From Bdellovibrio bacteriovorus (GTDB lineage Bacteria > Bdellovibrionota > Bdellovibrionia > Bdellovibrionales > Bdellovibrionaceae), in NCBI RefSeq assembly GCF_001592745.1, contig NZ_LUKD01000001.1, forward strand, positions 1,694,848 to 1,758,847: a stretch of DNA of 64,000 nt. The letters are read 5' to 3'. Positions within the stretch are counted from its first letter, which is position 1; the number at the start of each line of letters is the position of its first letter. Shown here piece by piece: positions 60,596 to 63,585 of the stretch. Below the pieces are notes generated by a model. That model was given only the letters and a program-made list of their open reading frames with translations. It was not told the DNA's origin and made no database searches. The translations under genes and the position numbers were made by a program.

Positions 60596-60686
60596 GGAGA
60601 GGTGGCCGAGTGGTTGAAGGCGCACGCCTGGAACGCGTGTGTAGGTCACAAGCCTACCGAGAGTTCGAATCTCTCTCTCTCCGCCA
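60596..60686 (+). tRNA. tRNA-Ser (anticodon GGA)
   Basis: Acceptor GGAGAGG (60596-60602) pairs with TCTCTCC (60676-60682, one G-T), the anticodon loop CTGGAAC at 60628-60634 has anticodon GGA at 60630-60632, the T-arm GAGAG/TTCGAAT/CTCTC is at 60659-60675, and a long variable arm (60640-60658) shows the class II tRNA-Ser type. CCA is encoded at 60684-60686. It reads UCU/UCC codons. Confidence 0.97.
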
Positions 60687-61475: not shown

Positions 61476-61880
61476 CTACTTATCTTCCTGCTTTTCCAAA
61501 TAACTTTTTATCGGGTCCCAGTTGTATTTGCGCCAACCAAGCTCGATAGAGGGAATCATTTCCTTGGGCACGCCCCGATGGATCAAGATAAGTTCGGTGC
61601 CGTTTTTGCTGGTGGGTTTTAAGTTGAAAGTCGCCATAGAGAATATTCCTTCAGGGAAGCTATGGCCTCTCCAAGCCTGGACGATTCTTTTATTTCGAAC
61701 TAGCTCCACGATGATTCCTGTTGCTTGTCCTCCATAAACTGAAAAGGGAGCTCCGGCTGACTTTCCGATCTTAGCTTTTTTTCCTGTCAGGGACGCATAC
61801 TTTTTAGAGTCTGTGAGTAAACTGTAAATCACATCAGGTGGGGCGTTAAAATGAACCTTTTGTTTTATCGTTTTACACAT
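61476..61880 (-). CDS. SRPBCC (AHSA1-like) domain protein
   Basis: 134 residues from the ATG at 61880, with GAGG six bases upstream; an ATG at 61892 is an alternative. START/AHSA1 fold signature: HFNAPPDVIYSLLTD, SVYGGQATGIIVELV, IVQAWRG, TELILIHRGVPKE and GWRKYNWDPIKSYLE. Such proteins bind hydrophobic ligands in a pocket; often paired with ArsR-type regulators, and a dyad lies upstream at 61903-61917. Function unknown. Confidence 0.85.
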   Translation of the reverse strand: MCKTIKQKVHFNAPPDVIYSLLTDSKKYASLTGKKAKIGKSAGAPFSVYGGQATGIIVELVRNKRIVQAWRGHSFPEGIFSMATFNLKPTSKNGTELILIHRGVPKEMIPSIELGWRKYNWDPIKSYLEKQEDK

Positions 61881-61902
61881 CTTATGCCTCATTACTTAGG
61901 AA

Positions 61903-61917: not shown

Positions 61918-62046
61918 CGATATTTGAAAGTACAAGTAAATGAAAAGCCCTGTGGAGCTTGGCAAGAAAAGTATTAAATTCTTTGCGCTGTCTCAAAATA
62001 CTCCAACCTAACTTAAGAATTCGAAGAATATTCCGATAAATATGTC

Positions 62047-63585
62047 ATGAATTTCGGAGCGTTTCTTGTGTTCATAGCTCTGTCTTATTTTGGGACAGAA
62101 GCGAACGGAGCGCCTACGACACTCACGTACCAAGGGCGTATCCTTCGATCTGATGGAACTCCATTAGAGCATTCCAACGTTAGCTTTATTTTTCAAATAA
62201 CAAATCCCTCTGGTCAGTGCACTATCTATCAAGAGCAAGTCACTGGAATTAATATGACGAACTCCAAAGGCGTCTTTGATGTTCCTATCGGTGCGGGTCT
62301 CATCAATTTTCCATTGAGTGGCGGCTTCACTGTTCTGGATGCCTTCAACAACTCTACCAGTTATACTTGTGGCGCGTGCGTTGGCTATAACTGCGTCAAC
62401 GGCACGAGCACATACACACCTCTCGGTTCGGACAGTCGTGTTTTGCGCGTGCAATTTCATGACGGCAGTGGCTGGCGAACTATTGCGCCGGATAATCTTA
62501 TCCGCTCAGTGCCGTTCTCTGGTTATGCTCTTTCCGCACAGAAGCTCGGAACGAATGTCGCTTCTGATTTTTTGTTGAAAGCGGGCTTACCCACTTGTAC
62601 AAGCAATCAGTATCTATCTTGGAATGGCACCACTCTGATATGCGCGACTTCTTCTGCCGCCAGTAGTTCTTCAACGGGTTTACTAAGTTCTACGGACTGG
62701 AATGCTTTCAACAACAAGCTGGACAGTTCTTCTTCTATTTCTACTTCGCAACTTCCAACGGTTCCCGTTTCTAAAGGAGGAACCGGGGTCACGTCACTGA
62801 TTCCGAATCGTCTGTTGGCCAGCGATGCAAGTGGCTCAGCGGTGACGGCTTTTAATTGCGGCGCCGGTCAGCTAGTCAGCTTTGATGCATTAGGTGTCAT
62901 GGGTTGCATCAATATTTCGTCTTTAGCAATGTTTGCTAACGGAGGAAACAGTTTTTCAGCGAACGCCGTTTTAGGAACTAGCGACAATTTTTCAGTGAGT
63001 TTCGCGACGAATGGAATCCGTCGAATGACGGTGACTGCAGATGGTAAAGTAGGAATTCTTACCACGACGCCGAACTCCGCTTTGACCGTCGGCGGACAGG
63101 TGGAATCAACGACAGGAGGTTTCAAATTTCCCGACGGCTCCGTGCAAACGACGGCGGCTTCTGCAAGTGTCCTTCCCAAAGTCATTACGTTTAGCAGTGT
63201 TTCCGGTATTACGACATCATCAGCACCTAGTTACGTCACGATGTCGACCCGGAGTTGGACGGCTCCAGCGACGGGGATGGTCTTAATGACATATTACAAA
63301 ATAGCTCCTTACATATTCTCCTGCACATCCGGGAATCTTGGGTTTCGATTTACCGTGGATGGAGCGGCAGGTTTTATAGGTAATCACGCATTTATAACCG
63401 GGGTGCACCGCTATCAAAACGGAGAAGTGGTCTTTCCTCCCATGGTGGATACTTTTAATGTCACGGAAGGCACTACTTACACCATCGCCACTCAGTATTT
63501 CACACAATCTTTTAGCTCATGCCTTTTCAATAGCCACGGCAACTCTTCAGGCCAAGACACAATCGTCATCCAATATGTTCAATAG
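62047..63585 (+). CDS. Secreted modular fibre-like protein with trimeric stalk motifs and variable tip
   Basis: 512 residues. A signal peptide of about 21 residues is followed by an N-terminal domain (TLTYQGRILRSDGTPL, SVPFSGYALSAQKL) to about residue 172. The middle is Ser/Thr-rich with LSSTDWNAFNNKL (about 213-225), VSKGGTGVTS (about 241), MTVTADGKVGI and FKFPDGSVQTTAA (about 359-371), motifs seen in phage-tail and trimeric-fibre stalks. The last 134 residues (from VITFSS, 379) look like a C1q/TNF-type beta-sandwich tip ending IVIQYVQ. The layout matches the chimeric adhesive fibre proteins reported in Bdellovibrio. Prey or glycan target is unknown. Confidence 0.7.
   Translation: MNFGAFLVFIALSYFGTEANGAPTTLTYQGRILRSDGTPLEHSNVSFIFQITNPSGQCTIYQEQVTGINMTNSKGVFDVPIGAGLINFPLSGGFTVLDAFNNSTSYTCGACVGYNCVNGTSTYTPLGSDSRVLRVQFHDGSGWRTIAPDNLIRSVPFSGYALSAQKLGTNVASDFLLKAGLPTCTSNQYLSWNGTTLICATSSAASSSSTGLLSSTDWNAFNNKLDSSSSISTSQLPTVPVSKGGTGVTSLIPNRLLASDASGSAVTAFNCGAGQLVSFDALGVMGCINISSLAMFANGGNSFSANAVLGTSDNFSVSFATNGIRRMTVTADGKVGILTTTPNSALTVGGQVESTTGGFKFPDGSVQTTAASASVLPKVITFSSVSGITTSSAPSYVTMSTRSWTAPATGMVLMTYYKIAPYIFSCTSGNLGFRFTVDGAAGFIGNHAFITGVHRYQNGEVVFPPMVDTFNVTEGTTYTIATQYFTQSFSSCLFNSHGNSSGQDTIVIQYVQ

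Follow-up and report, generated by a model that had tools for sequence, protein, structure and literature searches.

The question raised by this locus is whether a putative fiber gene in the window (the whole 64,000-nucleotide stretch of Bdellovibrio bacteriovorus DNA analyzed here) encodes a further member of the chimeric fibers of this predator and, if so, what the tip of that fiber would bind. Fibers of the mosaic adhesive trimer (MAT) family are the first proteins linked to prey recognition in predatory bacteria, and HD100 encodes 21 of them, with a conserved N-terminal domain, trimeric stalks, and exchangeable tips (PMC10769870). Surface display, mutant phenotypes, and glycan binding have been published for sibling MATs, and Bd2439, with a TNF-like tip that binds sugar, is the sole MAT of known ligand (PMC10769870).

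We conclude that the protein is a new MAT-family member carrying a rare TNF-like tip. Its kinship to the Bdellovibrio chimeric fibers, offered as an inference in the original prediction, is supported by a curated HMM and by matches to solved MAT fibers. The NCBIfam model NF053851 (Bdello_MAT_N, titled "mosaic adhesive trimer family chimeric fiber protein") matched residues 12 to 179 with an E value of 5.2e-64 and a score of 214.9 bits (cut-off, 60 bits). Across the genome the same model found 23 MAT genes, every one above the cut-off, and it gave zero matches across 14 control genomes. A phmmer search of the PDB matched residues 310-445, over the stalk and connector, with Bd2133 (8ond; E = 1.4e-10) and with a second crystallized MAT (8ojn; E = 1.3e-4), and it is through these matches, at the sequence level, that a MAT stalk with capping loops is recognized. 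The capping-like VGILTTTPNSAL aligns with VGIGATAPTAKL of Bd2133; the capping motif as printed in the MAT paper has no letter-for-letter match in the stalk. The beta-rich domain of ~130 amino acids that directly follows the signal peptide in MATs was recovered by the HMM, by paralogue alignment, and in the structural model. At the C terminus, where a MAT has one of two endings, an S74 autoprotease (SDxxxK) or a separate adhesive tip, the S74 motif is absent and a TNF-like tip is present, placing the protein in the NS74 type. A protein search of the genome had first given 21 MATs, most with an S74-type C terminus, which this one lacks. No Pfam model matched the protein (E up to 10) or any of the 23 aligned MAT members, and PHROGs gave chance-level matches only. 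In the same genome (G000), we also observed two divergent MAT genes with an altered N-terminal YQGR motif (IQGR, YEGI), L098 (G000:C8:489084-490097) and L093 (G000:C1:702018-703760), as well as further weak members at C8:182171 and C8:322749.

Table 1. Features of the fiber gene and its upstream region (window coordinates)
Feature	Coordinates	Strand	Residues, basis, or remark
FliA (sigma28)-like attack-phase promoter, TTAAG-N15-CCGATA	62013..62038	+	Ends 8 nt before ATG
MAT-family fiber gene, NS74 type (C terminus without S74 autoprotease)	62047..63585	+	512 aa, ATG start
Signal peptide	62047..62109	+	Residues 1-21; cleavage between ANG and AP inferred from paralogues
GGAGCGT, local form of G-N-R-C-G-T element	62056..62062	+	Comparison with MAT gene starts
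MAT N-terminal domain, conserved, beta-rich	62110..62541	+	~Residues 22-165; paralogue alignment, NCBIfam HMM, pLDDT 80-90
Stalk, short	62542..63159	+	Residues 166-371; sequence matches to solved MAT fibers, motifs
Stalk motif LSSTDWNAFNNKL	62683-62721	+	Residues 213-225
Stalk motif VSKGGTGVT	62767-62793	+	Residues 241-249
Stalk motif VGILTTTPNSAL, capping-loop-like, single	63049-63084	+	
Connector FKFPDGSVQTTAA	63121-63159	+	Residues 359-371
Tip, TNF/C1q-like jelly roll	63169..63582	+	Residues 375-512; predicted fold

The layout described from the letters alone, in which an open reading frame runs from a signal peptide through a conserved N-terminal domain and a stalk to a separate tip, was confirmed throughout (Table 1), and YQGRIL (residues 28-33), LSSTDWNAFNNKL, VSKGGTGVT, and FKFPDGSVQTTAA all lie where they had been reported. 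A separate tip likewise stands, with its boundary at about residue 373-376 instead of at residue 379. The frame is not a chance one, given its 86% protein identity and equal length in another species (G019), a dN/dS of 0.08, and an N-domain family match of 5e-64. The N terminus is hydrophobic and the A-N-G/A-P junction fits the A-x-A/AP pattern of the paralogues; the n-region (MNFGAF) has no lysine or arginine, that is, no positive charge. Like the NS74 MATs Bd2734, Bd2439, and Bd2133, the fiber has a signal peptide, a conserved N-domain, a beta-rich stalk, and capping-loop-like motifs; it has the KFPDGSVQTTAA connector in common with Bd2133 and a TNF-like fold of the tip (here predicted) in common with Bd2734 and Bd2439. 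Unlike all three, it is far shorter, with only ~200 residues in the stalk, and its tip has no sequence match to a solved tip (a structure alignment gives ~15% identity with Bd2734). Of two tip cysteines, C426 and C492, three orthologues have both and the fourth has neither. Invariant tip residues include R434, R455, Y456, D468, Q483, and Q487.

The proposed C1q/TNF-like nature of the tip is supported by its predicted fold, the closest solved structures being TNF-like lectins and TNF ligands. AlphaFold2, given four orthologous sequences, returned an all-beta monomer (pLDDT 77, pTM 0.74). The solved structure nearest to this model is BC2L-CN (2wq4; Foldseek E = 2.3e-4; VIA Z 10.7, 2.8 Å over 123 residues), and Z values of 10.3 and 8.4 were obtained with PLTL and the MAT tip Bd2734; Pgp3 and 4-1BBL are also among the nearest structures. 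Jelly rolls are common, and viral capsids and 4-1BBL score about 1 Z unit below the top values. The ranking was unchanged when residues 372-512 were taken from a full-length model, in which the N-domain reached pLDDT 80-90 and the stalk was of low confidence (pTM 0.33). A tip profile had no match among PDB sequences, and the Pfam TNF and C1q models did not match the tip at E values up to 10; the likeness of the tip to TNF is thus one of fold, and the tip lies outside these two Pfam families.

What such a tip would hold is suggested by its structural neighbors. Along almost its full length, the predicted jelly roll resembles the fucose lectins BC2L-CN (Burkholderia cenocepacia) and PLTL (Photorhabdus laumondii) (Z 10-10.7), although identity is 11-16% with no match at the sequence level; both lectins form TNF-like trimers, and neither serves a predator as a fiber tip. 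In BC2L-CN and PLTL, fucose is contacted between protomers by two arginines, a Thr/Ser, and a Tyr (PMC7024360, PMC12914763). By analogy with these lectins and with Bd2439 and Bd2734, the tip most likely binds a prey surface glycan in a pocket between subunits, and it probably helps the predator hold particular prey. Alternatively, the TNF-like tip of this MAT could bind a protein, either a prey outer-membrane protein or a partner on the predator, as TNF and C1q ligands do; 4-1BBL, RANKL, and other TNF ligands reach Z 8-9 against the tip model, and among the Foldseek BFVD matches are proteins of phage tails and proteins with a C1q domain. We consider a protein ligand unlikely, because the top two groups by fold are bacterial glycan lectins and the TNF-like tip of Bd2439 binds sugar.

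Two further readings concern the gene itself. It is the shortest of the 23 MAT genes in the genome (a frame of 522 codons, the next shortest having 661) and the nearest relative (G005) has no copy at this site, as might be expected of a stunted, decaying MAT gene that had lost its function along with most of its stalk. However, the frame is intact and of identical length in G019, a near-consensus promoter precedes it, and the loss in the sister species is a gene-content polymorphism and not decay in this genome. Relative to the G019 orthologue, dN/dS is 0.073 for the N-domain, 0.072 for the stalk, and 0.077 for the tip (~0.08 overall); in absolute terms the tip changes fastest (dN of 0.14 against 0.06), with its synonymous sites near saturation. 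The fiber protein is under purifying selection and is not decaying, which leaves the stunted-gene reading very improbable. A tail-fiber gene belonging to a prophage of the predator would account for stalk motifs that look like tail-fiber repeats and for a tip fold common to viral proteins, but the protein carries a MAT N-domain and signal peptide, finds no counterpart among 50,697 phage records, has no confirmed tip match in IMG/VR, and is encoded alone among ordinary chromosomal genes. On these grounds, a tailed-phage tail fiber, encoded by a phage or prophage, was ruled out, and we give it next to no weight.

The surroundings of the MAT gene differ among relatives. In G005, both flanking genes are kept (91% and 84% DNA identity), and the site is occupied by a lipoprotein gene on the opposite strand (L086, G005:C19:89500-93200) that encodes an HEVGHAIGL metalloprotease motif and weakly matches NF038122, below the cut-off. 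In G019, an orthologue of this protease and the MAT orthologue are divergently arranged, ~50 bp apart (L052:11038-11874). The simplest reading is reciprocal loss from an ancestral fiber and protease pair, with the protease lost in G000 and the fiber in G005. A survey of the neighbors of MAT genes found a lipoprotein partner at few loci only, and a lipoprotein as a general MAT partner and possible anchor was dropped as a candidate. In G021 and G012, the fiber gene lies in different surroundings. We also noted a tRNA-Ser (GGA) gene at window positions 60596-60686, ~1.4 kb upstream of the fiber gene; its distance to an SRPBCC-like gene (61476-61892) differs widely among relatives (~6 kb in G015, ~14 kb in G010), and the tRNA-Ser site may therefore be an insertion hotspot.

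The tip sequence was found in 4 of 24 Bdellovibrio genomes, one per species (100, 80, 68, and 39% identity); across 141 genomes of the order, none outside this genus had it. G001, which lacks the tip, has a fragment of Bd2133 in an exact copy and for that reason probably represents the species of Bd2133. This copy in a member of the same genus also supports the assignment to Bdellovibrio. Pattern matches to the tip in GTDB contigs and IMG/VR yielded zero confirmed cases, and since confirmation relied on a single sequence, distant relatives in these collections could be missed. Alignment with Bd2133 showed that its stretch VGIGATAPTAKLEVAGTIHSTSGGIKFPDGSVQTTAAS closely resembles the fiber from residue 335 on and is then followed by an unrelated beta-sandwich tip. 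Because the KFPDGSVQTTAA connector is common to both proteins but leads to an unrelated tip in Bd2133, tips have probably been swapped among MATs at this conserved connector.

Upstream of the gene, the FliA-like site has a spacer 1 base below that of the published attack-phase consensus, TTAAG-N16-CCGATA (PMC3627812). Across the whole genome, 16 FliA-like sites with spacers of 14-17 were counted, versus 8 for the reversed pattern. The site itself is observed, and the fiber is probably expressed from it in attack phase; as the promoter ends so close to the ATG, the fiber mRNA would probably be almost leaderless.

The least expected observation is the G-N-R-CGT element near MAT start codons. In most MAT genes, a CCGATA-type box stands a short way upstream of the ATG and a G-N-A/G-CGT word lies downstream, typically 10-15 nt past the A of the start codon. 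This word occurs in all three reading frames (e.g., L043:5973, L042:1523, and L044:1057), so protein sequence does not explain it. The pattern CCGATA-N(2-16)-ATG-N(5-14)-GNACGT gave 218 matches in 24 genomes (the sum of per-genome counts), compared with 22 for the reversed and 59 for a permuted (TNACGG) version; the corresponding counts in the fiber's own genome were 14, 1, and 2. Non-MAT matches in that genome include several lipoprotein or secreted-protein starts (L058, L060, L061, L041, and L043 near C1:811628), which suggests that the promoter and element at MAT and lipoprotein or secreted-protein genes mark one regulon. Synonymous divergence from G019 is 0.18 in the first 30 codons, a short stretch, versus 0.54 for the whole gene. 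A literature search, which was not exhaustive, found no published account of the element. We see an even chance that it is an unreported cis-element acting on nucleic acid behind near-leaderless FliA-like promoters, for example a site for base pairing or protein binding through which translation of the adhesive surface coat is switched from one phase to the other, attack or growth.

Taken together, the locus is best explained, with good confidence, as encoding a short non-S74 MAT. The signal peptide would export the fiber, and the N-terminal domain, as in the published family, would anchor it on the predator side. Judging from the matches to solved MAT fibers, a short trimeric beta-rich stalk would project the tip, which is predicted to be TNF-like and presumably trimeric and most likely grips a prey surface glycan in an inter-subunit pocket. 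Production would probably fall in attack phase, driven by FliA, and tip exchange at the connector is probable. A compact, naturally short fiber whose tip occurs in few species is handy for structures and for testing the tip set against prey range, and near relatives with and without the gene provide a ready-made comparison. The common start-codon element, in turn, suggests joint control of much of the fiber set.
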